Part shown: positions 2 to 33,100 of the stretch, in pieces
How positions within the stretch are numbered: position 1 is the stretch's first letter
Layout of the letters: the number at the start of each line of letters is the position of its first letter
NCBI GenBank assembly: GCA_029218405.1
Contig: JAQXRG010000129.1
Span: 1-54,715 of the forward strand
Direction: 5' to 3'
Source of the DNA: Bacteroidales bacterium
Lineage (GTDB): Bacteria; Bacteroidota; Bacteroidia; Bacteroidales; Bacteroidaceae
DNA: 54,715 nucleotides
Position numbers and translations under genes: made by a program
The notes under the pieces: model-generated
What the model was told of the DNA's origin: nothing
The model's database searches: none
The model's input: the letters and a program-made list of their open reading frames with translations, nothing else

Positions 2-151
2 CCGATAATTGCGGAACTGCTAGAGAAGATTGCATGCCTCTTCGGTTCTACGCTCGATGACCTCCTTGAAAGAGCCATGGCAGATGAAGGGACGAGGCAT
101 GTCCTCGAATGCATCCTCAGATATAATCAAAATTTCGATGACCGGGCATAG
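2..151 (+). CDS. Partial XRE-like transcriptional regulator, C-terminal end
   Basis: The reading frame is open from the left edge and ends in TAG, giving 49 residues. The segment ELLEKIACLFGSTLDDLL has the shape of the last helices of a Cro/C1 (XRE) helix-turn-helix domain, where the pattern LxxIAxxFGVSLDDL is common. About 25 more residues follow, with no recognised domain. The 5' part lies outside the window, so the identity rests on one short stretch. It sits 123 bp upstream of the porin gene on the same strand and could be unrelated to it. Confidence 0.55.
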   Translation, partial: PIIAELLEKIACLFGSTLDDLLERAMADEGTRHVLECILRYNQNFDDRA

Positions 152-274: not shown

Positions 275-1567
275 ATGAGTAAAAAGAAAATCTTATTCGG
301 ACTGTGTTCGCTGTTGGCGGTAGAGGCATTACAGGCGGCGGACGATGACTACGGCCAGTTCCGTGTGGGGGGCTATGGCGAGATGGTGGCCAAGTTTATG
401 GACTACGGTACGAACCGTTTTTATGGTGGGACGGACAACAGCGACCACCGGAACTCAGTATCCATTCCTCGTTTTGTGCTGGCGCTCGACTACAAGTTCT
501 CGCCCCGTTGGATACTGGGTGTAGAGATAGAGTTCGAGTCGGGCGGTGTGGGGATGGAAACGGAGCTGGAGAACTCGGAGAACGGGGAGTACGAGACAGA
601 GATGGAAAAAGGGGGCGAGGTGGCGCTGGAGCAGTTTCACATCACGCGCCTTGTCCATCGCTCGTTCAACGTGCGGGCCGGCCACCTGATTGTGCCGGTG
701 GGGCTGACGAACGCTCACCATGAGCCCATTCATTTCTTCGGCACCTCGCGTCCGGAGGGTGAGACGGTCATCCTGCCTTCTACCTGGCACCAGACGGGAC
801 TGGCGGTCTATGGTACCTTCGGGAGGGGGAAAGCCACTTTCGACTACCAGGCAATGGCCGTGGCGGGTATGAGTGCCGATGGATTCGGACGTGACTATTG
901 GGTGGCTGGCGGCAGACAGGGACTGTTCGAGGAGGACAACTTCACGTCGCCGGGTTATGCAGTGAGGGTGGACTATCGGGGATTGCCGGGACTGCGCGTG
1001 GGCGTGTCGGCCTATTACTGCCGCGACGTGACCGCCAATACGGACAAACCCTACAAGTACAGTGCCGTGGGGCGCTCGGGCTTGGCCATCGCCTCCGCCG
1101 ACGCTCAGTTCAAGAACCGTTTCGTGACCGCCCGGGCAAACCTGATTTACGGCGCGTTGGAGAACTCCGGCAAGATAGGTGCCGTTTCTCTCTCCAATAA
1201 GTCCAGCTACTACCAGGGTGTCCTGCGGAAGGTGGCGAAGAATGCCTTGGCCTACGGCGCCGAGGTGGGCGTGAACCTGCGGTCGGTGCTGTCCGCTCCC
1301 CTTTGTCCGGTCATTTATCCCTTTGCCCGTTACGAATACTACAATCCGCAAGAACGGGCCGTGAGGGGAGGAACCGTGGAGCGGCGCAACCAGGTGAGCA
1401 AGTGGACTGCTGGCGTGAACTGGTACGCATTGCCCAACCTGGTGGTGAAAGCAGACTATACCACCCGGCAGATAGGTACGCGGAAGGTGTTTGGGACCTC
1501 CGATTACAAAAGCGAGAACGAGTTGGCCATAGGAGTGGCGTATGTGGGATGGTTCTTTGGCAAATGA
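275..1567 (+). CDS. Outer-membrane beta-barrel porin (first of two in the cytochrome block)
   Basis: The protein has 430 residues from the ATG at 275. An in-frame ATG at 197 exists, but only the 275 start places a clean signal peptide (MSKKKILFGLCSLLAVEALQA) at the N-terminus. The mature protein is rich in alternating aromatic and polar strands, with Gly/Tyr-rich turns, and resembles phosphate-selective or DcaP-like porins of Bacteroidetes. A GHLIVPVGLTN segment followed by a stretch of His, Pro and Phe residues is typical of this barrel group. It begins the block leading to the imelysin and haem proteins, 135 bp upstream of the imelysin gene, so it may supply their substrate across the outer membrane. 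The substrate cannot be read from the sequence, and a general porin remains possible. Confidence 0.75.
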   Translation: MSKKKILFGLCSLLAVEALQAADDDYGQFRVGGYGEMVAKFMDYGTNRFYGGTDNSDHRNSVSIPRFVLALDYKFSPRWILGVEIEFESGGVGMETELENSENGEYETEMEKGGEVALEQFHITRLVHRSFNVRAGHLIVPVGLTNAHHEPIHFFGTSRPEGETVILPSTWHQTGLAVYGTFGRGKATFDYQAMAVAGMSADGFGRDYWVAGGRQGLFEEDNFTSPGYAVRVDYRGLPGLRVGVSAYYCRDVTANTDKPYKYSAVGRSGLAIASADAQFKNRFVTARANLIYGALENSGKIGAVSLSNKSSYYQGVLRKVAKNALAYGAEVGVNLRSVLSAPLCPVIYPFARYEYYNPQERAVRGGTVERRNQVSKWTAGVNWYALPNLVVKADYTTRQIGTRKVFGTSDYKSENELAIGVAYVGWFFGK

Positions 1568-1593
1568 ACGAATCCCGTGTGAAAACCCTTGCA

Positions 1594-1648
1594 AACAATC
1601 ATCAAACGGTGTTCGAACGGTGATTGAACGCTGTTCAAATCCTGTTCA
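1594..1648 (+). repeat. 11-bp tandem repeat array, four good copies and one decayed
   Basis: Copies are AACGGTGTTCG (1605-1615), AACGGTGATTG (1616-1626), AACGCTGTTCA (1627-1637) and AATCCTGTTCA (1638-1648). A weaker copy, AACAATCATCA, precedes them at 1594-1604. The period is exactly 11 bp, close to one helical turn, and the array lies between the porin stop and the imelysin start. It may be an operator with stacked sites or simply a decayed slippage repeat. Confidence 0.6.
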
Positions 1649-1702
1649 GCCAGTGATGGAACAATGGAATAGAAAATGATAAACCAATAACGATTAGAAG
1701 AG

Positions 1703-2827
1703 ATGAGAAAGTACATTTGTATGGCTGCCCTGATGGGCGGCATGGCCTGGATGGCCACAGCTTGCAGTGACAACGAGGCACCTGTCCAGCAGGAGCAGGA
1801 AGCCAAGAACCTGGACTATACGACGGACAACGCCGCCAGCTGGGGCAACTACATGCGTGTAGTGGCGCAGCTGCTGGTGAACGATGCCACCACCCTCTAT
1901 ACGGACTGGACCGTGTCCTACAACAACGGGCAGAGTTATGCCGACTTCTTTAAGGGGCAGGACGAGATGCTGAGCGTGGAACAGCTGATTGACGGATGCG
2001 CCGACATCGCCAACGAAGTGGGGACGGCCAAAATAGGCGACCCCTATGACCTCTATGTGAGCGGCCAGACAGAGAAGGCCCTTTATGCGGTGGAGTCGTG
2101 GTACAGCTGGCACTCGCGCGAGGACTACCGCAACAACATCTATTCCGTCCGCAACGCTTACTACGGTTCTCGCGACGGCAAGATAGGAGCACGGTCGTTG
2201 GCTGCGGCGGTGCGGGCGGCAGACGAAGCGCTGCATGCGAAGGTGACCAGTGCCATTGACGGTGCGGCAGCAGCCATCTGGGCCATCCCCAGTCCGTTCC
2301 GCAACCATATCAACAGCAGCGAGGCCAAGGCGGCCATGGAAGCCTGCGCGGAGCTGCAGGAGGTGCTGGTCAGGGAGTTGAAGCCCGCTGTGCAGCAGTT
2401 GGACAAGACGAAGTTGGCCCAGGCGGTGGCCGACTATGTGGACGTGGTCGTAGTGCCTACGTACAAGGACCTGAAGGAATGCAACCAGTCCCTGCTGGAA
2501 GCAGTGGAGGCCTTCCGCCAGTCGCCTTCCAACGCCGGATTCAAGGCTTGTGCCAACGCTTGGTTGGCTGCCCGTGAACCCTGGGAGACGAGTGAGGCCT
2601 TCCTGTTCGGTCCGGTGGCCGACAAGGGACTGGACCCCAATATGGACAGTTGGCCGTTGGACCAGGACGGCATCGTACAGGTGCTGACATCGGGTAGTTA
2701 CGACTCGCTGGACTGGAACGGGGATTACGACGAGGAGAGCGACGCCATCGCTTCGGCGCAGTCATTGCGCGGCTTCCATACGTTGGAGTTCCTCTTGTTC
2801 AAGGATGGCAATGCCCGAAGTTTCTGA
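1703..2827 (+). CDS. Imelysin-family lipoprotein, permuted type
   Basis: The protein has 374 residues with a lipoprotein signal ending at Cys21 (MATAC-S), so it is probably anchored in the envelope. The imelysin signature GxHxxE is present as GFHTLE, with Gly357, His359 and Glu362. It lies only about a dozen residues from the C-terminus, whereas canonical imelysins carry it much nearer the N-terminus. This fits the circularly permuted imelysin fold reported for a Bacteroides ovatus protein. The family was once listed as peptidase M75 but is now thought to act in iron uptake and probably not as a peptidase. The stop lies 4 bp before the start of the two-haem lipoprotein gene, so the two are almost certainly co-translated. 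Bound metal and ligand are unknown. Confidence 0.88.
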   Translation: MRKYICMAALMGGMAWMATACSDNEAPVQQEQEAKNLDYTTDNAASWGNYMRVVAQLLVNDATTLYTDWTVSYNNGQSYADFFKGQDEMLSVEQLIDGCADIANEVGTAKIGDPYDLYVSGQTEKALYAVESWYSWHSREDYRNNIYSVRNAYYGSRDGKIGARSLAAAVRAADEALHAKVTSAIDGAAAAIWAIPSPFRNHINSSEAKAAMEACAELQEVLVRELKPAVQQLDKTKLAQAVADYVDVVVVPTYKDLKECNQSLLEAVEAFRQSPSNAGFKACANAWLAAREPWETSEAFLFGPVADKGLDPNMDSWPLDQDGIVQVLTSGSYDSLDWNGDYDEESDAIASAQSLRGFHTLEFLLFKDGNARSF

Positions 2828-2831
2828 TGCC

Positions 2832-4271
2832 ATGAACTGTCGATCATTTATTGTTTCTTCCCTGCTGGGGTCCTCGTTGTGGGCCGTGACGGCTTGCAGC
2901 GGGGATACCCTGCTGGGGGAGGACGAGATAGAGGTGCCGGCCGGCTATGCCCTGTCGGCAGGCACTTCCACCAATTTCCTGACCTCCACCTTTGCCTACG
3001 ATACAGAGGCCGACTGGGTGAGCGGGGTGTACGCCAAGCGGTTCACGAGCGGCGACGGCCTGTACGACGATGTGCGGACCAGCAGCAACGGGACCGGTGG
3101 CGGGCTGGGACCGGTCTATGCGGGCTATTCCTGCGGCAGCTGCCACCGCAACGCAGGCCGCACCAAACCCACGTTGTGGAGTGAGGGGGGCAGCGGGAGC
3201 TACGGCTTTTCCTCCATGCTGGTCTATATCACCCGCCGCAACGGTGCCTTTTTTCAGGACTATGGGAGGGTGCTGCACGACCAGGCCATTTATGGCGTGA
3301 AAGCCGAGGGTAAGCTCAAGGTGGACTATACGTATGAGAAATTCCGTTTCCCCGATGGGGAAGAGTACGAGTTGTGCAAGCCTGCCTACCGCATTACCGA
3401 ATGGTATGCGGACAGTATCCGTCCCGAGGACCTGTTCTGTACGGTCCGTATTCCGCTTCGGCATGTGGGACTGGGGCCGATGATGGCCCTTGATCCTGTG
3501 GAGATAGAGGCATTGGCCCGCCAAAGCAACTATCCGGAGCTGGGCATCAGCGGCCGCTGCAATTATGTCACGGAGCGGGGAGTCCGGTGCTTAGGACTCT
3601 CGGGCAACAAAGCCCAGCATGCCGACCTGACCGTCGAGCTGGGATTCTCCAGCGATATGGGAGTGACCAACAGTCGCTATCCGGAGGAAATCTGTGAGGG
3701 GCAGGCGCAGGTGGCGCAAGGCAGCATGATGGGGCTGGCTTACGACCGGCTGGACTGCACGACGGAGGAGATGGAGGACGTGGACCTGTACATGCAGTCG
3801 TTGAGCGTTCCCGCGCGGCGCAATGTGAACGACCCGCAGGTGATGCGCGGCGAGCGGAAGTTCTTCGAGGCCAAGTGTCACCTCTGTCACGTCACGACCC
3901 TCCACACACGTCCCCGGGGAAGCACCCTGCTGAACGGTACCCACCTTCCGTGGCTGGGCAACCAGACCATCCATCCGTATTCCGACTACCTGCTGCACGA
4001 CATGGGGTCGGAAATCATGGGTGTGGGACTGAACGATCATTACGTGAGCGGACTGGCCCGGGGCAACGAGTGGCGCACTACGCCACTGTGGGGCATTGGC
4101 CTGCAGCAGACGGTGAACGGGCACACCTATTTTCTTCACGACGGACGGGCCCGTAACCTCTTAGAAGCCATCATGTGGCATGGAGGGGAAGCGGAAGCGT
4201 CGAGAAACCTGTTCAGGCAGATGAGCAAGGAAGACCGCGATGCGGTAGTGGCCTTCCTCAACAGCCTGTAG
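2832..4271 (+). CDS. Two-haem DUF1111 (COG3488) oxidoreductase lipoprotein
   Basis: The protein has 479 residues from the ATG at 2832. A start at 2805 would overlap the imelysin gene and put nine extra residues before the lipoprotein signal, which ends at Cys22 (AVTAC-S). Two c-type haem sites are visible: Cys101-Cys104-His105 (CGSCH) and Cys349-Cys352-His353 (CHLCH). Layout and length match the di-haem oxidoreductase family DUF1111, often labelled a putative thiol oxidoreductase without proof. Genes of this family commonly neighbour imelysin genes in other bacteria, as they do here. It probably works in the periplasm or at the outer membrane, transferring electrons to or from a metal or small substrate. 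The reaction is not known. Confidence 0.9.
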   Translation: MNCRSFIVSSLLGSSLWAVTACSGDTLLGEDEIEVPAGYALSAGTSTNFLTSTFAYDTEADWVSGVYAKRFTSGDGLYDDVRTSSNGTGGGLGPVYAGYSCGSCHRNAGRTKPTLWSEGGSGSYGFSSMLVYITRRNGAFFQDYGRVLHDQAIYGVKAEGKLKVDYTYEKFRFPDGEEYELCKPAYRITEWYADSIRPEDLFCTVRIPLRHVGLGPMMALDPVEIEALARQSNYPELGISGRCNYVTERGVRCLGLSGNKAQHADLTVELGFSSDMGVTNSRYPEEICEGQAQVAQGSMMGLAYDRLDCTTEEMEDVDLYMQSLSVPARRNVNDPQVMRGERKFFEAKCHLCHVTTLHTRPRGSTLLNGTHLPWLGNQTIHPYSDYLLHDMGSEIMGVGLNDHYVSGLARGNEWRTTPLWGIGLQQTVNGHTYFLHDGRARNLLEAIMWHGGEAEASRNLFRQMSKEDRDAVVAFLNSL

Positions 4272-4305
4272 CAGCAGTATCCAACCAACAATAACAAAGC
4301 AAGCA

Positions 4306-5517
4306 ATGAAAACAGCGATTATACTGGCGCTGGCTACCCTGTTGCCCTTAGCGGCATTGGCCCAGCACGAAGAAGAAACAGAGAATGGCGTCGTGTCACT
4401 GGCAGGGCGCGAAGGCTTTACCATCGGTACGAAGCAAGGCGACTTTGTGTTCAAGCCTTACCTGCTGGTGCAGACAGCCGCTAATTTTAACTGGTATGAC
4501 GATGAAGGGCTGGACAAGGCCTACAACCAGGACAATGTGGCCAACTCGGGCTTTTCCATTCCGTATGCGGTCATGGGATTCACCGGGAAGGCGTTCGGCA
4601 AGGTATCGTTCAACCTCTCCCTCAACGCGGCGGCCAGCGGGGGTGCCTTGCTCCAGCAGGCATGGTTCGATGTGCGCCTGCGCGAGAGCCTGGCCGTGCG
4701 GGTGGGCAAGTTCAAGACCCCCTTCTCGCACGCTTACCTGACCACCCTCGGCGAGACCCTGCTGCCTCAGTTGCCCGTATCGCTCACGGCGGCGGTCATC
4801 CTGCCCTATTCGCTCAATGCGGTCACGCCTGCTGTCGGGACGGGGTTCGATCTCGGTGTGGAGGCCCACGGTCTGTTGGGCGGAAAGTTCGGTTATGAGC
4901 TGGGCATCTTCAACGGCACTGGAGCGGCGGTCAATACGGCAGGAAAGACCTTCAGTGACGACTGGCACATCCCCTCGCTGCTGTATGCCGGCCGCCTGAC
5001 CTACCTGCCCCGAGGGGTGATGCCCTCCACGCAAGGAAATCCCGACCGCCTGAAGGAGGACAAGTGGATGGTGGGCGTTTCGGCCTCGGTCAATGTGGAA
5101 AGTGAGAACGAGAGCACCAACGACACTCGGGTGGGGGCCGAGTTCGCGCTCTTGCACCACCGGCTCTATCTGGCGGCAGAGGCGTACTGGATGCACGTGG
5201 ACTTCACGCGGCGGCAGAAAATCAGCGAGTCCTACAACTACCTGGGCGGCTACGTACAGGGAGGTTGGTTCGTGGCTCCCCGCGTGCAGGCGGCGTTGCG
5301 CTATGATTTCTTCAACCGCAACGGGACCGGCAAAGACGGGTTCCTGAACATGCCTGCCGTGGGCGTGAACTACTTCTTCAAGGACAGCGGACTGAAGTTG
5401 CAGGCCATGTATCAGTACATCGCCCGCAGTGGGCACGCCACGCAGCTGGACCGCGACAACGACAATCTGGGACTGGCCACCCATTCGGCTGTCGTGATGT
5501 TACAATATTGTTTCTGA
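4306..5517 (+). CDS. OprO/OprP-type porin (second porin of the block)
   Basis: The protein has 403 residues. A signal peptide (MKTAIILALATLLPLAALAQ) is followed by a beta-barrel-like sequence ending in Phe, the usual last residue of an outer-membrane barrel. The N-terminal GREGFTIGTKQGDFVFKPYLLVQ and the later VRVGKFKTPFSHAYL and GYELGIFNGTG segments are typical of the phosphate-selective porin O/P family, whose Bacteroidetes members have mostly untested substrates. It lies 34 bp after the two-haem gene and 7 bp before the cytochrome lipoprotein gene, so it belongs to the same transcript. Having two different porins in one short operon suggests either two substrates or one for entry and one for a partner. 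Confidence 0.82.
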   Translation: MKTAIILALATLLPLAALAQHEEETENGVVSLAGREGFTIGTKQGDFVFKPYLLVQTAANFNWYDDEGLDKAYNQDNVANSGFSIPYAVMGFTGKAFGKVSFNLSLNAAASGGALLQQAWFDVRLRESLAVRVGKFKTPFSHAYLTTLGETLLPQLPVSLTAAVILPYSLNAVTPAVGTGFDLGVEAHGLLGGKFGYELGIFNGTGAAVNTAGKTFSDDWHIPSLLYAGRLTYLPRGVMPSTQGNPDRLKEDKWMVGVSASVNVESENESTNDTRVGAEFALLHHRLYLAAEAYWMHVDFTRRQKISESYNYLGGYVQGGWFVAPRVQAALRYDFFNRNGTGKDGFLNMPAVGVNYFFKDSGLKLQAMYQYIARSGHATQLDRDNDNLGLATHSAVVMLQYCF

Positions 5518-5524
5518 GGAAAAA

Positions 5525-6256
5525 ATGAAAACAGCAGGAAAAGATTTTCGGATGTGGAGGGTTTTCTGTATCTTCGCCGCACTCGCGGCCGCCTGTGATG
5601 ACGGGCGTATCCAGGAGCAGGAGACGGAGACCTACGAGGAAGGTTACAGCGTGCGGCTCATCGGTGCGGTCAGTGGTGTCGGCAGTTGGACGGACGGCTA
5701 CAGCGTCGTTCTGGCCGGGTTCGAGGATGGTAACGACTATGCGGTCATCTCGAAGGCGCTCCCTTTGGGGGACGAGGCGGTCGATATGGAACTGAACGGC
5801 ATCGGTCAGGAGGTGGACGAGCTGCGGCTGTGCGTGGTGAACCGTCTCCGGGAGAGTGTGTTCGACTATTATACGTGGCGGACCGAGGAGTTGGACCTGT
5901 CGGCCGGTGTGCTCCGGCTGTCGATGCCCGACAGTGTGGCCGCCGACATGTACACCTGCCTCCAGCGGGCGGTGTTCGACCGTACGTGTGTGGCTTGCCA
6001 TGGAGTAGGGGGCCGGGCGGCGGCCGGACTTGACTTGTGCGAAGGGAAAAGCCGTCCCGCTTTGGTGGGACAGCCGGCGACGGTGGTCGATGGCGGTGTG
6101 CGCGTAGTCCCGGGCGATGCCGACAGCAGTGTGCTGTATCAAATGGTGGCGACGGGACTGAGCCAGTCGATGGGTATTGACCATTCGGACATGCTGTCCG
6201 CCGACGGTACTGAAATGAAATTATTGAAAGATTGGATAGACCATGGAACAGATTAA
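5525..6256 (+). CDS. One-haem cytochrome c lipoprotein
   Basis: The protein has 243 residues. A hydrophobic leader ends at Cys24 (LAAAC-D), a likely lipobox. A single haem site, Cys155-Cys158-His159 (CVACH), opens a C-terminal domain of about 90 residues that closes with LLKDWIDHG, the usual end of class I cytochromes c. A Met suitable as second haem ligand lies in the MVATGLSQSMGI or DHSDML segments. The first 150 residues match no domain I recognise. It probably hands electrons to the two-haem protein or accepts them from it. Its end overlaps the next gene by 14 bp, which implies coupled translation. Confidence 0.82.
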   Translation: MKTAGKDFRMWRVFCIFAALAAACDDGRIQEQETETYEEGYSVRLIGAVSGVGSWTDGYSVVLAGFEDGNDYAVISKALPLGDEAVDMELNGIGQEVDELRLCVVNRLRESVFDYYTWRTEELDLSAGVLRLSMPDSVAADMYTCLQRAVFDRTCVACHGVGGRAAAGLDLCEGKSRPALVGQPATVVDGGVRVVPGDADSSVLYQMVATGLSQSMGIDHSDMLSADGTEMKLLKDWIDHGTD

Positions 6257-7388
6257 GGACAAGCAGCCCTCCGCTCGGGTGGAGACCTTCCGGATGGAGG
6301 GGCGTGGAGGTGTGACGGAACTCCACCTGATGATTCATGCCACCGACGTGCGGGCCACTTTCGCCGAGCAGTTGGAGGCGGTGCTGGCAGCCTATTCGGA
6401 CGCGCGTAGGGCAGAGGGGCCGGAGGCGGTCAGCGTGTTCTGGCGTTGTTTTGTGAGCGATGCCGCCAATCAGGAGGATGAGGTGGTGAGCCGGCTGCTC
6501 GACACGACCGATTGTGCGGTTTCGGTGGTGGAGCAGGCACCGTTGGACGGCACGAAAGTGGCCCTGTGGGCGTACTTGATGACAGGGGTACGTACACGGT
6601 TGTTGCCGGGCGGAGGCTGTGAGGTGGCGCACGGTGCCTATCGTCACTGGTGGACGGCAGGTTGTCGCAACCTGGAGGAGGGATCGGAATGGCAGACCCG
6701 GCTGCTGCTGAACGACTATGTGTTGCGCTTGGCGGCACTGGGCGGACGGCTGGCGCAGCACTGCCTGCGCACGTGGTTCTTCGTGCAGAATGTGGACGTG
6801 AACTATGCCGGCTTGGTGAAGGCACGCAACGAGGTGTTCGTCACGCAGGGACTGACCCCTCAGACGCATTTCATTGCCAGTACAGGCATTGCCGGACGGG
6901 CGGCCGACCCCCGGGTGAAGGTCTTGATGGACGCCTACGCGGTGGACGGGCTGTGCGAGGGACAGGTGTGTCATTTGCACGCACCTGCCCACATGAACCC
7001 GACTCACGAGTATGGGGTCAGTTTCGAGCGGGGCACACAGGTGGATTACGGCGACCGCCGACAGGTCTTCATCTCCGGGACGGCGAGCATTGACAACCAA
7101 GGGCAGGTGGTGTGGCCGGGCGACATCCGGCGGCAGACGCAGCGGATGTGGGACAATGTGGAGGCACTGCTGCAAGAGGCGGAATGCACGTTCGATGAGG
7201 TGGGGATGATGATTGTCTATCTGCGTGACGGCTCGGACTATACGGTGGTACGCGAGTTGTTCGACGAACGGTTCCCTCGGGTGCCGAAAGTCATCGTGCG
7301 GGCGGCGGTCTGCCGTCCGGGATGGCTCATCGAGATGGAGTGCATGGCCGTCAAGACCTTGCCGCCCAACGGATTTCCGGATTTTTAA
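6243..7388 (+). CDS. Rid-family enzyme, chorismatase-like (XanB2/FkbO type)
   Basis: The protein has 381 residues and no signal peptide, so it is cytoplasmic. The C-terminal half has the YjgF/Rid pattern: VFISGTASID, then WDNVEALLQEAECTFDEV, then AAVCRPGWLIEMECMAV. The Cys-Arg-Pro and the two Glu residues fall where Rid and chorismatase proteins keep their active-site residues. The N-terminal half, with NVDVNYAGLVKARN and FIASTGIAG, resembles the first domain of chorismatases such as XanB2, FkbO and Hyg5, which cut chorismate to hydroxybenzoates or a dihydroxy acid plus pyruvate. No biochemical match can be shown by eye. It overlaps the cytochrome gene by 14 bp and precedes the CcsBA gene by 10 bp. 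An aromatic acid product could serve in quinone, redox-mediator or chelator synthesis. A plain imine deaminase role is the alternative. Confidence 0.65.
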   Translation: MEQIKDKQPSARVETFRMEGRGGVTELHLMIHATDVRATFAEQLEAVLAAYSDARRAEGPEAVSVFWRCFVSDAANQEDEVVSRLLDTTDCAVSVVEQAPLDGTKVALWAYLMTGVRTRLLPGGGCEVAHGAYRHWWTAGCRNLEEGSEWQTRLLLNDYVLRLAALGGRLAQHCLRTWFFVQNVDVNYAGLVKARNEVFVTQGLTPQTHFIASTGIAGRAADPRVKVLMDAYAVDGLCEGQVCHLHAPAHMNPTHEYGVSFERGTQVDYGDRRQVFISGTASIDNQGQVVWPGDIRRQTQRMWDNVEALLQEAECTFDEVGMMIVYLRDGSDYTVVRELFDERFPRVPKVIVRAAVCRPGWLIEMECMAVKTLPPNGFPDF

Positions 7389-7398
7389 GGACAAGCCG

Positions 7399-8784
7399 AT
7401 GCGAAAACGAATGGTAATAGGGAGCTATGTCACCCTGATGGTGGTGCTGGCGGTCGCCACCGGACTGGAACACCGTTACGGAACCGAGTTCGTGGGTCGG
7501 CAAGTGTATGGCACCGGTTGGTTCTTTGCCTTGTGGGCGGTGCTGGCCGTAGGCATCGGAGGAGCCATCGTGAGGGCACGCCTGTGGCGGAACTGGGCGG
7601 TAGGAGGGCTGCACCTCGCTTTCTTGTGGATGTTGGCAGGGGCGGCCGCCACTGCCCTGACCGGTCGGCAAGGGCATGTCCGCCTCTTTCCCGGTGTGCC
7701 GGTGCGACATTATACGGACGCTGCGACGGACGGCCGGCAGGAGCTGCCGTTCGTCTTGTGCCTCGACAGTTTTCGGATTCGTCTGCACCGGCAGACGCTG
7801 CATCCATCGGATTACGTGAGCTATCTCCGGATAGACGGACAGCCCGCCCGGGTGTCGATGAACCGGGTGCTGGAGCGGCGGCACTACCGCTTCAGCCAGG
7901 CTTCTTACGAAGAGGACGGCAGTAGTTGGCTGTCGGTGAGCCGCGACCCGTGGGGAATCGGCCTCACCTACGTGGGGTACGGACTGTGGGGAGTATCCGT
8001 CGTCGGTTTGCTCTTTTTCCGGAAAAGGCTGCCAGACGGAGACGTAGAAAGAGAGAGCGGCTCGACGGTCCGTGTCCGGTCGAAACGACCGTGGGGCGAT
8101 GCCGTACAGACCCTCGCTTCCGTTTCCGTACTGCTCCTCCTGTTCCTTCAGTTCGGGCTTCGGTGGAAAAAAGGAGGACATATCCCCTTGAGCAACGGTT
8201 TCGAGACACTGCTCTTCCTGGCCCTTTGTGTGCTCTCCGTTTCGATAGCGTACAGCCGCCGCTTTCCCATCTTGCAGCCGGTCGGGCTGTGGTTGTCGGC
8301 GGCCGCGCTGGTCATGGCGTTTCTCGGTCCCATGGACGCGTCCGTCTCTCCCTTGGCCCCTGTGCTGGCTTCACCGTTGCTGGGTTTCCATGTGGCCACG
8401 GTGATGGCAGGCTATGCGTTGCTGGCATTGGTCTTTGCCGTCGGAGTGGCTGGCTTGTTGCGGCCGGCCCGGCGGGAGGAGCTGGCCCGTCTTTCCCGAA
8501 GGCTGCTCTATCCGGCAGTCTGTTTCTTAGGGACAGGTATCTTTCTGGGAGCGGTGTGGGCCAACCAGTCGTGGGGTCGGTATTGGGCGTGGGACCCCAA
8601 GGAGGTGTGGGCGTTGGTCACGTTCATGGTGTACGGTGTGGCTTTCCACCGCCGCAGTCTCGCCTGGCTGCGCAGGCCGCTGGGATGGCATCTTTACCTC
8701 ACGGGGGCGTTCCTGACGGTGCTGATGACCTATTTCGGGGTCAACTTTCTGCTGGGTGGGATGCACAGTTACATGGGCGGTTAA
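7399..8784 (+). CDS. CcsB-CcsA (ResB-ResC) cytochrome c assembly fusion
   Basis: The protein has 461 residues from the ATG at 7399; the frame stays open upstream but overlaps the previous gene. The N-terminal part has about three membrane segments and a short periplasmic ResB-like loop, then another helix near residues 190-210. The C-terminal half is a multi-helix CcsA/CcmC domain with the tryptophan-rich haem-handling motif WAWDPKEVW at residues 396-404. Histidines on nearby loops (GFHVATVMAGY, HRRS, MHSYMGG) are candidate haem ligands. System II proteins of this kind carry haem across the membrane and attach it to CxxCH apoproteins. The two cytochrome genes just upstream are its obvious clients. 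The gene ends the block. Confidence 0.9.
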   Translation: MRKRMVIGSYVTLMVVLAVATGLEHRYGTEFVGRQVYGTGWFFALWAVLAVGIGGAIVRARLWRNWAVGGLHLAFLWMLAGAAATALTGRQGHVRLFPGVPVRHYTDAATDGRQELPFVLCLDSFRIRLHRQTLHPSDYVSYLRIDGQPARVSMNRVLERRHYRFSQASYEEDGSSWLSVSRDPWGIGLTYVGYGLWGVSVVGLLFFRKRLPDGDVERESGSTVRVRSKRPWGDAVQTLASVSVLLLLFLQFGLRWKKGGHIPLSNGFETLLFLALCVLSVSIAYSRRFPILQPVGLWLSAAALVMAFLGPMDASVSPLAPVLASPLLGFHVATVMAGYALLALVFAVGVAGLLRPARREELARLSRRLLYPAVCFLGTGIFLGAVWANQSWGRYWAWDPKEVWALVTFMVYGVAFHRRSLAWLRRPLGWHLYLTGAFLTVLMTYFGVNFLLGGMHSYMGG

Positions 8785-8855: not shown

Positions 8856-10172
8856 ATGAGACGATTGACGAAAGCATTGATAGGTTGTGCCCTTTCGGGG
8901 GCACTGGCCACCTCTGCCGTAGCGCAGGAAGGCTATCAGCCTACGCCCGAGAACATCGAGGCGCGCAGGCAGTTTTCAGACAACAAGTTCGGTATCTTCC
9001 TCCACTGGGGCATCTACAGCCTATTCGGGCAGGGCGAATGGTACCTCCAGTCTAACCACATCCACAAGGACGAGTACGCCAAGGCCGCCGGCGGCTTCTA
9101 CCCGGCACGCTTCGACGCGGCGCAGTGGGTGGCCGCTTTCAAGAAGGCAGGAGCGAAATACATCTGCTTCACCACGCGCCACCACGACGGTTTCTCCATG
9201 TTCGATACGAAGTACTCCGACTATGACATCATCGATGCCACCCCCTTCAAGCGCGACATCGTGGGCGAGCTGACCGCGGAGTGCAAGAAACAGGGGCTGA
9301 AGGTGCATTTCTACTACTCGCACATTGACTGGACGCGCGAGGACTACCCGATGGGATACAGCGGACGCAATACCGGAAAGGACCCGAAGAAGGCAGACTG
9401 GAAGTCGTACTACGCTTTCATGAACCACCAGTTGGAGGAGCTGATCCGCAACTATGACCCCGATGCCATCTGGTTCGACGGGGTGTGGGACCACAACCCT
9501 AAGACCACGGACTTCGACTGGCAGTTAGAGGAGCAATATGCCTTTCTTCACCGCCTGAAGCCGTCTATCCTCGTTGGCAACAACCACCACCTGGCCCCCT
9601 ATCCGGGCGAGGACTTCCAGATGTTCGAGCGCGACCTGCCCGGCGAGAACAAGGCGGGCTTCAGCGAGGGCACGGAGGTGAGCCGCCTGCCCTTGGAGAC
9701 CTGTGAGACGATGAACGGCATGTGGGGCTATAAGATTATCGACCAGAACTACAAGTCGGTGCGCGACCTGGTGCGCCTGTTAGTGGGGGCAGCCGGAAAG
9801 GGGGCGAACCTGCTGCTGAACATCGGCCCGCAACCCGACGGCGAGTTGCCTGCCACGGCCTTAGAGCGGCTGGACGGCATGGGGGCCTGGCTGGCGAAGT
9901 TTGGCGAGACCGTCTATGGCACTACGGCGGGCGACGTGCCCACGCGGCCTTGGGGCGTGACGACCCGCAAGGGCGACAAACTGTACGTGCATATCTTCTC
10001 GTTGGACGACGAGCAGCTCTTCCTGCCACTGACCGGCAAGGTGAAGTCGGCGGTAGTCTTTGAGGACCGGCAGCCCGTGAAGTTCCGCCAGACACGCGAG
10101 GGCGTGCTCCTCGGTGTGGGCCAGCGGCCCGATGTAGCCGACTACGTGTTGGAGCTGACCGTGGCCGACTGA
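8856..10172 (+). CDS. Secreted alpha-L-fucosidase, GH29
   Basis: The protein has 438 residues with a signal peptide ending near TSAVAQ. Family GH29 hallmarks follow in order: FGIFLHWGIYS, YICFTTRHHDGFSMFD, IVGELTAECKKQGLKVHFYYS and DAIWFDGVW. Asp208 in the last motif is the expected catalytic nucleophile; the acid/base residue cannot be fixed by eye in this family. A late GKGANLLLNIGPQPDG stretch is also typical. It should release terminal L-fucose from mucin or other host glycans in the periplasm or at the surface. Secreted esterase and glycosidase genes follow, but no SusCD pair lies in the window, so this is not a classical complete PUL. Confidence 0.93.
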   Translation: MRRLTKALIGCALSGALATSAVAQEGYQPTPENIEARRQFSDNKFGIFLHWGIYSLFGQGEWYLQSNHIHKDEYAKAAGGFYPARFDAAQWVAAFKKAGAKYICFTTRHHDGFSMFDTKYSDYDIIDATPFKRDIVGELTAECKKQGLKVHFYYSHIDWTREDYPMGYSGRNTGKDPKKADWKSYYAFMNHQLEELIRNYDPDAIWFDGVWDHNPKTTDFDWQLEEQYAFLHRLKPSILVGNNHHLAPYPGEDFQMFERDLPGENKAGFSEGTEVSRLPLETCETMNGMWGYKIIDQNYKSVRDLVRLLVGAAGKGANLLLNIGPQPDGELPATALERLDGMGAWLAKFGETVYGTTAGDVPTRPWGVTTRKGDKLYVHIFSLDDEQLFLPLTGKVKSAVVFEDRQPVKFRQTREGVLLGVGQRPDVADYVLELTVAD

Positions 10173-10248
10173 TGTCCGGAGGGGAAGATTATCGACAGAT
10201 TCCTATTCTTTGCGTACATTCTCCAAGTCCGGTTCCAACGGAAAGCCG

Positions 10249-10256
10249 TACTTTTG
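10249..10256 (+). promoter_or_regulatory. Probable -7 element for the beta-propeller glycosidase
   Basis: TACTTTTG matches TAnnTTTG and lies 25 bp before the ATG at 10282. No good TTG is present at the -33 distance, so the call rests on the -7 box and its position. Confidence 0.45.
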
Positions 10257-10281
10257 CGTCTGTAACCAACGAACAGGAATC

Positions 10282-11919
10282 ATGAAATATCTACAGACAA
10301 TCTTAGCATGCGGCCTGCTGCTGGCAGGAATGCCGGCCCAGGCACAAGTCACGGAACGCGAGCGCCCGGAGGAGTGGAAGAACTTGGTGACGGGAGGACG
10401 CTTTGCCGACCGTTTCGAAGCCATGCCGCAGGGACAGCTCAGCGACAAGAACTGGGGATGCGCCGACGTGCAGCCCCGCTATGTGGACAACGGCATCGAG
10501 CGCGAGGACCTCTCCTTCTGGGGTGGAAACATCCTGAAGGGCGATGACGGACGCTACCATCTCTTCGTCTGCGGCTGGAAGGAAAACTCTCCGCGTGGCC
10601 ACATGTTCTGGTCGAAATCGACCGTGTTCCACACCGTGGCGGACAAGCCCTACGGGCCTTACCACATCGTGAACTCCATCGGCAAGGGGCACAATCCGGA
10701 GGCGTTCCGCCTGACGGACGGACGTTACGTGGTGTATGTCATCGACGGCTGTTACATCGCCGACCGCCTGGAAGGCCCGTGGCTCTACAGCCGCTTCAGT
10801 TTCGACCCGCGCGACCGGCGCATCATCGAGGGGCTCTCGAACTTGAGCTTTGCCTCGCGTCCGGACAACTCGAAGCTGATGGTGTGCCGCGGTGGAGGCA
10901 TCTGGGTGAGCCGGGACGGACTGTCGCCCTACCAGCAGCTGACCGACAAGCGGGTCTATCCGGCGGTGGAAGGCGAGTTCGAGGACCCCGTCATCTGGCG
11001 CGACGAGCTGCAGTACCACCTTATCGTGAACGACTGGCTGGGCCGTGTGGCTTTCTATGAGCGCTCGTTAGACGGCCTGCACTGGGTGGTGGAGGACGGC
11101 GAGGCATACGTGCCGGGCATCTCCCGCCATGCGGACGGAAAGGTGGAGAACTGGTTCAAGTACGAACGCCCCAAGGTGCTGCAGGACGAATACGGACGGG
11201 TGACGCAGATGAACTTTGCCGTCATTGACACCATCAAGTGGGAAGACCTGCCGAACGACCGGCACAGCTCGAAGAACATCTGTATCCCGATGAACCGCGG
11301 GTTGCGCATGGAGGTGAGGAACACGGCGCCCATCGGACCCAAGACGAAGAAAATCGAGTTGCTCATCAAAGGGGATGCTGACGGACGGCCCTTGGCCGAC
11401 CTGGATTTTGCATCGCTGCGCTTCGGTACGCATAGCGAGGTGAACTACGGACGCGGAGCGAAGGCCGTGAAAGCCGTCCCGCAGGGCAACGACCTGCTCG
11501 TGACCTTCCAAGGAAAGGACAGCGGCATTACCGATGAAGAGTTCGCTCCGAAGCTCATTGGTGCGTACAAGGACGGCCAGCTGGCCTTCGGCTATGCCCG
11601 TCTGCCTTACCTTAATTATAAGCCGGCCCTTCTCTCGGCTCGTCTGCCGGTGGCGCAGGACGGTGGCATGGCCGTCGAGGTGCAGAACTTCGGACTCTCG
11701 GCTTCCGAGCCTTGCACCGTCAGCGTGACGCTCAATGGGCAGCTCCTCGGCCGGACGGAAGTCCGCGTGCTGCAACCCTACGAGGCGGTAACCTGCAGTG
11801 TGCCTTCTGTCACGTACCGGCCGCAGGAGAAGGATGTGGTCGAGGTGTGCTTTGAACGCGCTGGAAACGTGTTTGAACGGAACACCTTGGTGGTAGAACC
11901 GAAGCAAGAGAAAAAGTAA
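10282..11919 (+). CDS. Secreted beta-propeller glycosidase, GH43-like
   Basis: The protein has 545 residues from the ATG at 10282, which gives a signal peptide ending at PAQAQ; an upstream in-frame start at 10210 would overlap the probable promoter. Blade-like repeats are visible: GDDGRYHLFVCGW, YGPYHIV, NPEAFRLTDGRYVVYV, GLSNLSFASRPDNSKLMV and EFEDPVIWRDELQYHLIVND. This is the usual look of five-bladed propeller glycosidases of GH43 and related families, with acidic residues in NPEAF and EFEDPV as candidates for catalysis. The last 170 residues look like beta-sandwich material. The sugar it acts on cannot be told. It stands between the fucosidase and a sialate-type esterase, so a host-glycan substrate is likely. 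Confidence 0.65.
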   Translation: MKYLQTILACGLLLAGMPAQAQVTERERPEEWKNLVTGGRFADRFEAMPQGQLSDKNWGCADVQPRYVDNGIEREDLSFWGGNILKGDDGRYHLFVCGWKENSPRGHMFWSKSTVFHTVADKPYGPYHIVNSIGKGHNPEAFRLTDGRYVVYVIDGCYIADRLEGPWLYSRFSFDPRDRRIIEGLSNLSFASRPDNSKLMVCRGGGIWVSRDGLSPYQQLTDKRVYPAVEGEFEDPVIWRDELQYHLIVNDWLGRVAFYERSLDGLHWVVEDGEAYVPGISRHADGKVENWFKYERPKVLQDEYGRVTQMNFAVIDTIKWEDLPNDRHSSKNICIPMNRGLRMEVRNTAPIGPKTKKIELLIKGDADGRPLADLDFASLRFGTHSEVNYGRGAKAVKAVPQGNDLLVTFQGKDSGITDEEFAPKLIGAYKDGQLAFGYARLPYLNYKPALLSARLPVAQDGGMAVEVQNFGLSASEPCTVSVTLNGQLLGRTEVRVLQPYEAVTCSVPSVTYRPQEKDVVEVCFERAGNVFERNTLVVEPKQEKK

Positions 11920-11981
11920 CGCGCCGCACGGCCCCGAAGGATTTCGGAGGGCAGAATGTATGTTATTCGTATGTTTTTCTG

Positions 11982-11989
11982 TATCTTTG
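11982..11989 (+). promoter_or_regulatory. Probable -7 element for the two-domain esterase
   Basis: TATCTTTG is an exact TAnnTTTG match, 19 bp before the ATG at 12009. The -33 region lacks a clear TTG. The closeness to the start implies a very short leader. Confidence 0.6.
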
Positions 11990-12008
11990 CCGAAAAACAG
12001 AAAAATAT

Positions 12009-14105
12009 ATGTGGAAAACTTGGCTTTTGGCTGCCGGATGCCTGTTGGCAAGCAGCCGGATGACGGCTCTCGACGCAAAGCCCCCTGTCAAGGTGGCGTG
12101 TGTGGGCAACAGTGTGACGTATGGGTATCTTCTTCCCGACCGGGAGGAGAACTGCTACCCCGCCCAGCTGCAGCGGTTGCTGGGCGAAGGGTATGATGTG
12201 CATAATTTCGGACGGAGCGGTGCCACGCTGTTGCGGCGGGGGCACCGCCCGTATCATCAGATGGAGGAGTGTCAGGAGGCGTTGCGCTTTGCGGGCGACA
12301 AGGTCATCATCCACCTGGGACTGAACGATACAGACCCCCGCGACTGGCCCAACTACCGCGATGATTTTGTGAAGGATTACCTGCAACTCATCGATGCGTT
12401 CCGCGCGGCCAACCCGAAGTGCGAGGTGTGGATTTGCCGGATGACTCCCATCTTTCATCCGCACCCCCGTTTCAAGTCGGGCACCCGCGACTGGTTCTGG
12501 CAGATTCAGGCGAAGATAGAAGAGGTGGCGCGACTGTCGGGCGCGGGACTGATTGACCTGCATCCGGCCCTCTACGACCGCCCTGACCTGTTTCCCGACG
12601 CGTTGCATCCCACGGCGGAGGGTGCCGGCCTGCTGGCACGGAAGGTCTATGGACACCTGACGGGCGACTTCGGCGGATTGTGGCTCCCGGAGGTTTATTC
12701 GGACAACATGGTGCTGCAACGGGGAAAACCGTTGCGCGTGGCCGGACGCGCCAATGCGGGTGAGGCGGTGACGGTGGCCGTGGCCGGACGGAAAGCCCGT
12801 ACGACGGCGGGACCGGACGGACGCTGGGAGCTGCGGCTTCCGGCCCTCGAAGTCGGCGGACCCTATACGTTGCGGGTGCAGGCGGCATCGGGCCGTCGTG
12901 AGTTCACCAACGTGCTGGTGGGAGAGGTGTGGCTCTGCTCCGGACAGTCGAACATGGCGTTCCGGGTGGACCAGTCGGTGAAGGAGGAAGTGGAGGCGTC
13001 GCTCCAGGCGGCCGCCCGCCGTCCGGCTGTCCGCCTGTTCCATATGCAGCCCCGCTGGATGACCAACGATGTGGAGTGGGGGGCCTCGGTGCTCGACTCG
13101 CTGAACCACCTGCAGTATTTCACCTCCACGCAGTGGACGGAGTGCGGTGAGGAGGAGGTGAAGCGTTTTTCGGCCATCGCCTTCGCTTTCGGTAAGATGC
13201 TGGCAGACAGCCTGCAGGTGCCCATAGGACTCATCAACAATGCGGTGGGTGGTTCGCCCACAGAGGCCTGGATTGACCGCAAGACGCTGGAGTTTGAGTT
13301 CCCCGACGTATTGTATGATTGGAAGAAGAACGACTTCGTGCAGGGATGGGTGCGCGGACGTGGGGCGAAGAACATCGCGAAGTCCGCCCATGCGCTCCAA
13401 CGCCATCCGTACCAGCCGTGCTATCTCTATGAGGCCGGTATCGCCCCCTTGAATCGCTTCCCGGTTCAGGGTTTCCTGTGGTATCAGGGCGAATCGAACG
13501 CCCACAACATCGAGGCCCACGAGCGGCTGTTCCGCTTGCTGGCGAAGAGCTGGCGGGTGGAGTGGCAGGAGGAGCTGCCGTTCTACTATGTGCAGCTGTC
13601 CAGCCTGAACCGTCCCAGCTGGCCTTGGTTCCGCGACAGCCAGCGGCGGCTGATGGCCGAGGTGGCTCCTGCCGGCATGGCGGTCTGCACCGACCGAGGA
13701 GACTCGCTCGACGTGCATCCCCGTCGCAAGCGCGAGGTGGGCGAGCGGCTGGCCCGGTGGGCGTTGCGCCAGACGTACGGGCATGCCTGTGTGCCGTCCG
13801 GTCCCTTGTTTCGCTCGGTAGAGGTGCGCGGCGGCGCGGCGTACGTGTCGTTCGACTATGCCGAGGGACTGCGCAGTGCCGATGGCGCCGCCTTGCGCAC
13901 GTTCGAAGTGGCGGAGCAGGAGGACCTGTTCTACCCGGCGCATGCGGAAATCGTTGGTGGACAAGTGAAGGTATGGAGCGAGCAGGTGCGTCGTCCGCGT
14001 TTCGTGCGCTATGGCTGGCAGCCGTTCACGCGGGCGAACTTAGTGAACGGAGCGGGCCTGCCGGCATCGACGTTCCGGAGTGAATGCATGTATTTCTATC
14101 AATAA
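12009..14105 (+). CDS. Two-domain SGNH hydrolase / sialate O-acetylesterase
   Basis: The protein has 698 residues with a leader MWKTWLLAAGCLLASS. The first domain, about residues 25-215, is a GDSL/SGNH esterase: block I GNSVTYG with Ser35, block III GLND, and block V DALHPTAEG. The second, from about residue 225, is a sialate O-acetylesterase-type domain: a beta-rich lead, then VWLCSGQSNMAF with Ser314, GGSPTEAWI, LWYQGESNA and DVHPRRKREVGERLA with the catalytic His. Two esterases in one chain would strip acetyl groups from sialic acid or other sugars so that glycosidases can act. The layout resembles dual-domain esterases of oral and gut Bacteroidales. The exact ester is not known. The next gene follows directly. 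Confidence 0.88.
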   Translation: MWKTWLLAAGCLLASSRMTALDAKPPVKVACVGNSVTYGYLLPDREENCYPAQLQRLLGEGYDVHNFGRSGATLLRRGHRPYHQMEECQEALRFAGDKVIIHLGLNDTDPRDWPNYRDDFVKDYLQLIDAFRAANPKCEVWICRMTPIFHPHPRFKSGTRDWFWQIQAKIEEVARLSGAGLIDLHPALYDRPDLFPDALHPTAEGAGLLARKVYGHLTGDFGGLWLPEVYSDNMVLQRGKPLRVAGRANAGEAVTVAVAGRKARTTAGPDGRWELRLPALEVGGPYTLRVQAASGRREFTNVLVGEVWLCSGQSNMAFRVDQSVKEEVEASLQAAARRPAVRLFHMQPRWMTNDVEWGASVLDSLNHLQYFTSTQWTECGEEEVKRFSAIAFAFGKMLADSLQVPIGLINNAVGGSPTEAWIDRKTLEFEFPDVLYDWKKNDFVQGWVRGRGAKNIAKSAHALQRHPYQPCYLYEAGIAPLNRFPVQGFLWYQGESNAHNIEAHERLFRLLAKSWRVEWQEELPFYYVQLSSLNRPSWPWFRDSQRRLMAEVAPAGMAVCTDRGDSLDVHPRRKREVGERLARWALRQTYGHACVPSGPLFRSVEVRGGAAYVSFDYAEGLRSADGAALRTFEVAEQEDLFYPAHAEIVGGQVKVWSEQVRRPRFVRYGWQPFTRANLVNGAGLPASTFRSECMYFYQ

Positions 14106-14115
14106 GCAACTAACC

Positions 14116-30112: not shown

Positions 30113-33100
30113 ATGAAACGAATGATGCGAAACTGGGTGTGCGGCACCCTTGTGATGGTGGTGTGGCTGTGCCTGCAGGGAATGGCCGTGCAGGCACAGG
30201 CTCCCTCCTACGAACGGTTGTGGGCGAAGGTGGACTCGTTGGTCCGGCAGGACTTGCCGCGTTCCGTCCTGAAAGCGGTGGAGGAGATTGCGGCCAGGGC
30301 GGAGGCGGAGCGCAATGTGCCCCAACTGATGAAGGCGTACCTGACGCGCTCGGCCTGTCGGGTGCAGCTCACGCCCGACAGCTTGTCTGCTGAACGGAAA
30401 GCATTGACGGCCTGGGCGGAACAAGAGACAGACGTGGTGGCCAAGGCCGTGCTCTACAACGTGCTGGGGGGCCAGTGGCTGGACGGGACGGAGAAGGATG
30501 TCCAGCAGGCGGTCCATTACTTTCGGCTGTCCTTGCAGGCGAAGGAGCGGTTGGCCGAGACACCGGCCGGCAACTTTCGGCCGATGACGGTACCCGGCCG
30601 GCTCAGTGAACGTTATTTCAAGGATAATCTGTATGACTTATTGGTACGACAGGCAATTCGCAAGCTGTCCTCCCAGGCTCCTTGGGCGGAGCGTGACAAG
30701 GCCCTGGAAGTCTGCTGGGACTGGTACGAGGAGCTGTCAGCCTGGTATGAAGGGAAGGGCGACCGTCAGGCGGCGTTCCTGACCCGTGAGGCGCAGTTGT
30801 GGTTCCAGTTAGAACGGATGGCCCATCTGCGCCGTTATGTGTTGGAGAAAGACGAGGCGGAGCGGCGGTTGCGCTCGCTGGTCCAGGCGGGCGAGGAACT
30901 GTCGGTCGGGGCGGATGCAGCGGTCAAACTGGCTGAATGGTACCTGCGGCAGGACGAACGGGAGAAGGTCGTGGAAGTGGCTCAGGAGGCATTGCGCCGT
31001 TTCCCGAAAGGGGAGTGGGCGGACCATCTGCACCGCTATGTCCGGGCGGCGGTCCGGCCGGAACTGCAGGCGAGGCTGCCTTTCGTCTATCCGGACCGTC
31101 TGGCCGATGTCCATGTCCGGTTCGCCAACCTTACCGGGGTGACGTTCGAGTGTTATCGGCTGTCACTGCCGCCCGCGTCTCCGCTGTTAAGAGGAGACCT
31201 CAAGGAGGCGGAGCTGGCGCGCCGGTATGGGAAAAAAGTCTCGTCGGCCTCCTTCTCCTTAGTACCGAGGAAGGATTACCGGGCCGCTGATACCGTGCTG
31301 CAGGTCCAGCTGCCGGAAGCAGGTGTTTATCTCATGAAGCAGGTACCCAAGGGGCATGCGGACAAGGCGGCCTATACCTTGCTGCATCTTTCTCCTTACC
31401 AGGCGGTCTTCGTTCCGGTGGATGCCCGACGGATGGAGGTGGTAGCGATGGACAAGCTGACCGGTCAGCCCGTGGCGGGTGCCGAACTGGTAACCTATCG
31501 GTATATGGGCGGAGAATACCAGCAGCAACACGTCTTTCCTGCCGGCCCGGACGGCAGTGTGGTGTGGGAATTGCCTGATAAAGGAACGGTTTATTACAAT
31601 GTCCGCACGTCGGGCAATGATTTCATGCCGGTCTGTGCGAGAAGTGCCCGGCTGCGGGGGACCTACCAGCGGCAGGAGGGGACGGAACTGAAAGGAAGAC
31701 TCTATACCGACCGTGCCCTGTACCGTCCGGGGCAGGTGGTGCATGTCTCGGGACTGCTGTGGCGGCAGAACGGGGACTCCCTGCACGTGGCCGCCGGCGA
31801 GCGGCGGCAGTTGTCGTTGGTGACGGAGGCGGGAGAACTGGCCCGTCTGGAGGTGGTCACGGATATGATGGGAGTACTGCAAGGCGAACTGGTCCTCCCG
31901 TCTTCCTTGCGTCCGGGCACTTATACGGTGCGTTGTCAGGAGGCGGCACGTACCTTCCGGGTGGAAGAATACAAGCGCCCCACCTTTGGGGTGGAGTTCC
32001 AACCCTATGATGCGCCCTATCACTTCGGAGACTCCGTGGAGGTGAAGGCAGTGGCCCGGACGTTCGCCGGCGCACCGGTGCAGGAAGCCGTCGTGCGTTA
32101 CCGGGTGTTGCGGCAGGAACGGCGGTGGTTCCGGTGGGGATCCGTCCGGGAGGAACAGGTGGCGGCAGGTGTGACCCGCACCGATGCGGAAGGTTGGCTG
32201 TGCGTGCCGGCCCGGTTGGCCGAACCGGAAGGACTGGAACGGGAGAATTATGTCCTCTACCGCTTGCTGGCCGAAGTGACCAACGGGGCCGGTGAGACCC
32301 AAGAATCGGTGATGGAACTGCCCGTGGCCCGTCAGTCCGTCGGTTTGCAGGTCAAGGGCTTGCCCGAGGTCTGGCAGAAGGAACAGGCACTTGACCTACA
32401 ATTCCAGGCCCTCAATCTGAAGGGCCGTTCCGTCGAACTGTCGGTGGGCTACCAGGTCGAGGCGGTGGGGGACGATGGCCGGCCGGTGGCCGTGGCCTTG
32501 AAGGGCGAGGCGATGTCGAACCGCCCGGTGGATACATCTGCCTTCCAGGCCTTGGCGTCCGGACGCTACCGCTTAGTGCTGACCGTTAGCGACACGGAAG
32601 GGGAAGTCAGTCAGGTGGAGCGAGAGTTTGTCCTCTTCTCGGGAGAAGACCGGCGGATGCCTTACACGACGGACGCTTGGTTTCATGCCGACGGCTCGGT
32701 CTTCGGACCCGGTCAGGAGGTGACCTGCTATGCAGGCAGCAGTTGTCAGGAGGTGTACCTGTTAGTGGACGTGTATTGTGGCACCCGACGCATCGAGTCG
32801 CGCCGGGAACGTATGGACAATGAGGTGCGTGCGTTCCGTTTCGCCTACCGTCCGGAGTACGGCGATGGCCTGTTGGTCAGCTTTGCCTTTGTCAAGGAGG
32901 GCGTGCTCTACAGCCATATCCAGCGAATTGAGAAGGCACGTCCCGACCAGCGGTTAGAGGTGCGGTGGACATCGTTCCGTGACCGCCTCCAGCCCGGCGC
33001 GCAGGAAGAGTGGCAGTTGAAGGTCACCGACCCGTTGGGCCGTCCTGTCGCCGCCAGTCTGATGGCCACGCTCTACGATGCCTCCCTCGATGCGCTGGTT

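Follow-up and report, generated by a model that had tools for sequence, protein, structure and literature searches.

The contig JAQXRG010000129.1 of a Bacteroidales bacterium (assembly GCA_029218405.1, C129 in our numbering) was analyzed over its entire length of 54,715 nucleotides, which is called the window in the following, and carries seven genes, here named A to G, on the plus strand at positions 275–8784. With moderate confidence we read this block as an iron-starvation operon, which builds an iron-handling complex at the cell surface or outer membrane. The initial annotation had tied the block to iron and had named a missing response to metals as a refutation. The tie to iron is supported, and the matching block of Bacteroides thetaiotaomicron (B. 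theta) is strongly induced by iron depletion (PMC10434189).

The block and its counterpart in B. theta

Open reading frame (ORF) calling and the Pfam/NCBIfam assignments agree on seven genes in one direction, as initially annotated. Gene A (275–1567) encodes an outer-membrane porin-like barrel with a weak Porin_O_P match (E value 1e-6, 28.7 bits against a cut-off of 20.9) and is followed by gene B (1703–2827) for a circularly permuted imelysin lipoprotein (Peptidase_M75, C-terminal GxHxxE, lipobox followed by C-SDNEA). Gene C (2832–4271, alternative ATG at 2805) codes for a two-haem DUF1111/DHOR lipoprotein with two CxxCH motifs (PF06537, E value 9.3e-64), gene D (4306–5517) for a porin (Porin_O_P, E value 5.1e-67) and gene E (5525–6256) for a lipoprotein with one haem site. 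Gene F (6243–7388) encodes a Hyg5/FkbO-like enzyme of the chorismatase fold, a predicted hydroxybenzoate synthase, and gene G (7399–8784) a short form of the CcsBA-type (System II) haem-attachment proteins. The small gaps and overlaps noted earlier for the genes downstream of the first one measure −23 to 34 bp after B: B and C share 23 bp or are separated by 4 bp, depending on the start codon chosen for C, E and F share 14 bp, and the remaining gaps are 34 bp (C–D), 7 bp (D–E) and 10 bp (F–G). The widest gap of the block, 135 bp, separates A from B, and a crude scan found no terminator-like site in it. Three lipoproteins in a row, as formerly stated, is wrong, since porin D separates C from E.

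In B. theta the genes BT2473–BT2482 are 62.7- to 323.7-fold upregulated in iron-depleted medium (69.4- to 323.7-fold in the text of that paper), and their annotations comprise fimbrillin, CcsA, hypothetical proteins, a porin, a thiol oxidoreductase, peptidase M75 and a helix-turn-helix (HTH) protein; those members that appear in Table 7 are approximately 14- to 33-fold upregulated in a colitis data set (PMC10434189). We equate these genes with the block because of the same order (HTH, A, peptidase M75 for B, thiol oxidoreductase for C, porin D, E, F/G), the annotations, the match of B to the imelysin PIBO of Bacteroides ovatus and the identity of >50% that permuted imelysins, including the one of B. 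theta, share with each other (PMC3143127). The orthology is thus judged from order, annotation and PIBO and not from the B. theta sequence. In the accessible part of PMC10434189 these strongly iron-repressed loci are described as regulated genes and the counterpart of F goes without an enzyme name, whereas here F is recognized as a chorismatase fold and the block is traced across the Bacteroidales; furthermore, G of the window is short.

The genes around the block also point to low iron. A flavodoxin, a DUF2023 protein or a haemerythrin protein, which are kinds of proteins induced in low iron (PMC10434189), is encoded in 31 of 50 loci with C, versus 2 of 30 loci without C, a contrast that would be favoured if the loci with C are longer than those without. 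Haemerythrin proteins were found near the block in 24 of the 50 loci with C (L025, L050, L054, L057, L061, L067, L073 and others), in many loci beside or fused to a LuxR-type regulator, and may be iron or haem sensors. As the ligand of imelysins is undefined in the part of PMC3143127 covered, it could be argued that the block handles another metal or metal complex, such as copper, manganese or cobalamin, with iron being merely the signal. The size of the iron response and the neighbours of low-iron type make this very unlikely.

Conservation of the gene order

A scan of genome contigs with F yielded 390 relatives, the best 80 of which define the F-loci used for the locus counts. All seven genes are intact in 29 of these 80 F-loci according to our own gene caller, every time in the order A-B-C-D-E-F-G, and the others are truncated at contig ends or are without some members; a relative of C is present in 50 and relatives of A were called in 46 of the 80. 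A survey of the family covered 201 genomes, with C counted at E values up to 1e-10, F at E values up to 1e-40, and second fragments of the same C gene dropped in six genomes. C was found in 135 and F in 132 of them. Where a close C relative is present (49 genomes), F lies 2.0–4.4 kb downstream of it on the same strand in 43, elsewhere in four and nowhere in two; where C is divergent (86 genomes), F is downstream in 15, elsewhere in 43 and absent from 28. The order survey of 198 genomes gave F in 18 at E values up to 1e-10, 14 of these being long strong matches. Longer stretches were taken from 13 of the 18, not counting the own genome, and C adjoins F in five of them (L106, L108, L109, L110, L117). 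Variants comprise porin-imelysin-longer C-CcsBA-F (L090, L102, L110), A-B-C-D-E-G-F (L109) and A-F with genes for haemerythrin and LuxR proteins behind it (L106, L117). By these counts, the seven-gene block is frequent within the family and scattered beyond it. With 29 of 80 F-loci its arrangement is no mere coincidence, and the order is not unique to this genome, which the initial annotation had named as a possible refutation.

A candidate promoter box upstream of gene A

Among 44 sequences taken from upstream of A, recurrent 8-mers are shared by up to 29 (at most 11 in shuffles) and 10-mers by 22 (5 in shuffles). From the recurring words we built the box RGGTATTG-N20-TAnnTTTG, whose right half we take to be the Bacteroides −7 box. 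A search of 1.43 Mb of loci with spacers of 6–22 allowed gave 41 matches, all 41 with a spacer of 20; 33 stand immediately upstream of A. A count by gene, restricted to genes preceded by 310 bases of sequence, gave an exact box in 33 of 46 upstream regions of A and a box with at most one mismatch in 42 of 46, whereas it precedes F in none of 47 cases in loci with C and B in 1 of 44. Therefore, transcription of the block probably starts from a single promoter ahead of A. A search of 20 genomes of the genus detected 65 sites in 18 genomes, compared with two for the reversed control, and in many cases a left half-site (TACC) turns the box into an inverted repeat. According to an assignment by Pfam for representatives and by BLAST clustering for the rest, 36 of the 65 sites precede genes for porin A, TetR, TonB receptors, calycin-like proteins, pyruvate formate-lyase, phosphoglycerate-mutase-like proteins or AhpC, and the other 29 belong to small or single classes (among others UvrA, a cysteine-rich protein and housekeeping genes), have no ORF or, in two cases, were left out of the assignment. 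Genes of the TetR, gpmA, ahp and pfl kinds likewise count among those induced in low iron (PMC10434189), and the box is a candidate mark of an iron-starvation regulon of Bacteroides.

The imelysin and the haem proteins

In B the two halves of the M75 profile are swapped, with profile positions 119–284 ahead of 2–116, and the motif GFHTLE (GxHxxE) is located at residues 357–362, as in permuted imelysins. B matches PIBO (3n8u) with an E value of 1.2e-124. Both the pairing of imelysin with DUF1111 and the permuted imelysin of Bacteroidales were already published in 2011 (PMC3143127). Among 44 aligned imelysins, comprising proteins of >360 residues only, 33 permuted and 11 ordinary ones by our rule occupy the same slot of otherwise collinear blocks, although L062, one of the 11, is probably permuted as well (motif at 330 of 413). 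Hence, the permutation altered the protein and not its place. C scores 216 bits against a cut-off of 22 with PF06537 and is a member of DUF1111/DHOR; the two CxxCH motifs are kept in 45 of 47 called relatives. All 44 called relatives of E have one CxxCH. No cytochrome model of Pfam/NCBIfam scored above its cut-off with E, and its predicted structure has an N-terminal beta domain and a C-terminal cytochrome c domain (mean predicted local distance difference test score, pLDDT, of 90.0).

Since DHOR is annotated as putative peroxidase, C might be a peroxidase and the block a low-iron oxidative defence at the surface with the imelysin as scaffold, in line with a promoter box that is common to peroxiredoxin genes and with the induction of the B. 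theta counterpart in colitis (PMC10434189). We consider this unlikely, as peroxide removal would require neither two porins nor an imelysin nor a chorismatase, three haem centres per set would be costly for mere defence in iron starvation, and the neighbours are of low-iron type. Di-haem proteins can also oxidize a partner protein, for which MauG and MbnH are precedents; none of the papers found in a literature search on this point names imelysin together with MbnH, MbnP or kynurenine. C could accordingly be a maturase of this kind, oxidizing a conserved tryptophan or tyrosine of the imelysin into a metal site, and W69, W294 and W317 of B are indeed invariant in 44 of 44 imelysins, as are G, H and E of GxHxxE. 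These tryptophans may be structural, and C matches PF06537 and not the MauG family PF03150, and we regard the maturase as quite doubtful.

Cellular location of B, C, and E

Many relatives of B start with C-SDDDD-like and many of C with C-DDDG-like sequences, and SDDDD is a proposed surface signal of B. fragilis (PMC5080379). A strict lipobox is present in 21 of 45 relatives of B, 23 of 47 of C and 19 of 44 of E. Under this rule at least three of the five residues after the cysteine are acidic in 12/21 B and 19/23 C, but in 0/44 other lipoproteins, a comparison set of only 44 drawn from the same loci. With the bar lowered to two acidic residues the counts are 16/21 B, 23/23 C, 17/19 E and 13/44 others. 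A looser lipobox rule, applied to 37 loci, gave 33 B, 27 C and 24 E, of which 28, 22 and 18, respectively, have at least two acidic residues. Moreover, BT_2479 has been detected in supernatants of cocultures of E. coli and B. theta, with protease activity not lost in a BT_2479 mutant (PMC6282197), and its signal peptide sends cargo to vesicles (preprint PMC13192842). B is most likely an outward-facing lipoprotein at the outer membrane, and we infer a surface position for C and E as well. Of the surface or periplasmic complex suggested initially, likely outer-membrane lipoproteins are retained, and for the imelysin an exposed place at the surface fits better than one in the periplasm.

Gene F, a predicted chorismatase

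F contains a C-terminal Ribonuc_L-PSP domain and has a weak FkbO/Hyg5 match (Pfam/NCBIfam), and its predicted whole-protein fold is that of the chorismatases Hyg5 (5a3k, 5ag3) and FkbO (4bps), with which it aligns over approximately 300 residues at only 18–21% identity. Glu334, Gly173, Gly240 and Cys327 of Hyg5, the catalytic and class-II residues according to PMC7170507, correspond to E364, G215, G279 and C357 of F and are kept in 48 of 48 sequences, with the Hyg5 numbers of the three class residues being our own conversion (+9). Unlike Hyg5 and FkbO, F is set among iron and haem genes. As F misses the cut-off of the NCBIfam chorismatase model TIGR04444 with 41 versus 325 bits, it is not filed in that subfamily and can only be said to work like it.

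Alternatively, F might be a plain Rid imine deaminase or a passenger unconnected to the redox block, and indeed its best sequence matches are RidA-type proteins, it is often located elsewhere and its score on the chorismatase model is low. The catalytic arginine of RidA, which we take to be Arg105 in E. coli numbering, aligns by our own reading with position 349 of F, where K occurs in 31 and R in just 3 of 48 sequences, and F was thus not assigned to the RidA imine deaminases. Together with the chorismatase residues kept throughout, the fold match over the whole length and the 43 of 49 close-C genomes in which F follows C, this renders the alternative rather unlikely. The aromatic-acid enzyme of the initial annotation is thereby sharpened to a whole chorismatase fold with an intact catalytic set, and F is predicted from sequence and fold to convert chorismate to hydroxybenzoate, of the 3-hydroxybenzoate type. 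The product of a chorismatase is not accurately predictable from sequence alone (PMC3949708). In the literature covered, which includes few subscription journals, no activity is assigned to F and no mechanism to the block.

Gene G and haem attachment

G consists of ResB and CcsA parts with the WWD motif and four histidines typical of System II CcsBA, presumably two transmembrane and two periplasmic ones, and so the block has its own cytochrome assembly factor, as had been claimed. All five CcsBA patterns are present in G, and in 34, 50, 49, 48 and 49 of 51 relatives, respectively. G missed the cut-off of the NCBIfam CcsB equivalog TIGR03144, to which it is related (142.7 versus 187.6 bits). 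With 461 residues compared to 613–750 in 47 of 51 relatives, it is without the central segment of approximately 200–240 residues that these 47 can hold. In B. theta nrfAH and its ccsAB are 30- to 36-fold downregulated in low iron (PMC10434189), and this shutdown is probably why the block has a private CcsBA. The genome of the window also contains, on another contig (C181, L105:5665–8796), a split ResB/CcsA pair followed by a MauG-type di-haem peroxidase.

Other genes of the window

A cut ORF (positions 2–151, plus strand, frame 2, stop at 149–151), of which the contig edge leaves the 3′ end only, precedes A and has no Pfam match (best E value 0.29); judged by position, it may be the counterpart of the HTH regulator BT2482 of B. 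theta. On the 3′ side, genes for an alpha-L-fucosidase, a GDSL/sialate esterase protein and an S9 peptidase (8856–16572) suggest glycan use, apparently unconnected with the seven-gene block. A bacterial alpha-2-macroglobulin of 1876 residues is encoded at 30113–35743.

Proposed function of the block

For the iron-handling complex we propose that B, and probably also C and E, are outer-membrane lipoproteins, B most likely facing outward, and that the porins A and D would be channels substituting for a TonB receptor. C, helped by E, would use its haems for redox chemistry, either on iron itself or on a ligand of iron that is bound by B, and this presumed step, in the presumed direction, would make iron available to the cell, with final entry of Fe2+ via FeoB as the likely inner-membrane step. 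G would attach haem to C and E, and F in the cytoplasm would convert chorismate to a hydroxybenzoate, maybe an iron ligand or reductant. A tentative extension, to which we give rather low credence, is a TonB-independent, siderophore-like route, in which the hydroxybenzoate made by F under iron starvation leaves via the porins of the block and acts as iron ligand or electron carrier for the surface haem lipoproteins C and E, with iron delivered via B; such a route would occur across gut Bacteroidales.

The imelysin with a di-haem DUF1111 protein is shared with PA4370–PA4373 of Pseudomonas aeruginosa and with PIBO of B. ovatus, the latter also in the permuted topology of B (PMC3143127), and the block goes beyond such pairs by two porins, a further cytochrome, a chorismatase-like enzyme and a CcsBA. 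The ferrous iron transporter EfeUOB likewise combines an imelysin domain with a haem redox protein for iron, whereas the haem protein of the block is instead a c-type DUF1111 protein and the block is without an inner-membrane transporter; the own genome, 83% complete, gave no match to an EfeU/FTR1 permease either.

Several observations weigh against the iron-handling complex. In a thermofluor test, PIBO bound neither haem nor ferric ion (PMC3143127). Where the electrons for iron reduction would come from is a weak point, and the 83% complete genome gave no NapC/NirT-type quinol-cytochrome link. With a strict lipobox, 0/19 E relatives have at least three acidic residues among the five after the cysteine, and B, C and E of the window have 2, 1 and 2, so that the surface case is weaker here. 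F is located exclusively elsewhere in 47 of the 135 family genomes with C, 27 of the 132 with F have no C match, and the F tree requires 16 switches of the operon label. The box precedes F in 0 of 29 loci without C, and the first 300 bases of the window are without it upstream of A, even at three mismatches. Here the promoter may be located ahead of the truncated gene on the 5′ side. A gene for a TonB-dependent receptor elsewhere in the genome (G000:C173, L186:2–2158) has the box with the full inverted repeat, and therefore the regulon seems to be present although the block of the window is without the box. Finally, the ResB/CcsA genes BT1604-5 of B. theta are 2.3-fold upregulated in low iron (PMC10434189), which weakens the reason for a private CcsBA.

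The ordinary parts, the pairing of imelysin with DUF1111 and the iron induction are already known, and the novelty lies in a chorismatase-type enzyme, in the surface signals and in the promoter box. B. theta, a model gut commensal, has the counterpart among its strongly iron-repressed, colitis-induced loci (PMC10434189). F as a chorismatase type leads to a testable small-molecule product, the surface signals tell where to look for the proteins, and the promoter box gives a handle on the iron-starvation regulon of Bacteroides. A private CcsBA under common regulation would account for the making of cytochromes while the haem-attachment genes of nrf are down, and the old question of the role of imelysin and DUF1111 can be addressed by deleting the genes in a laboratory strain.
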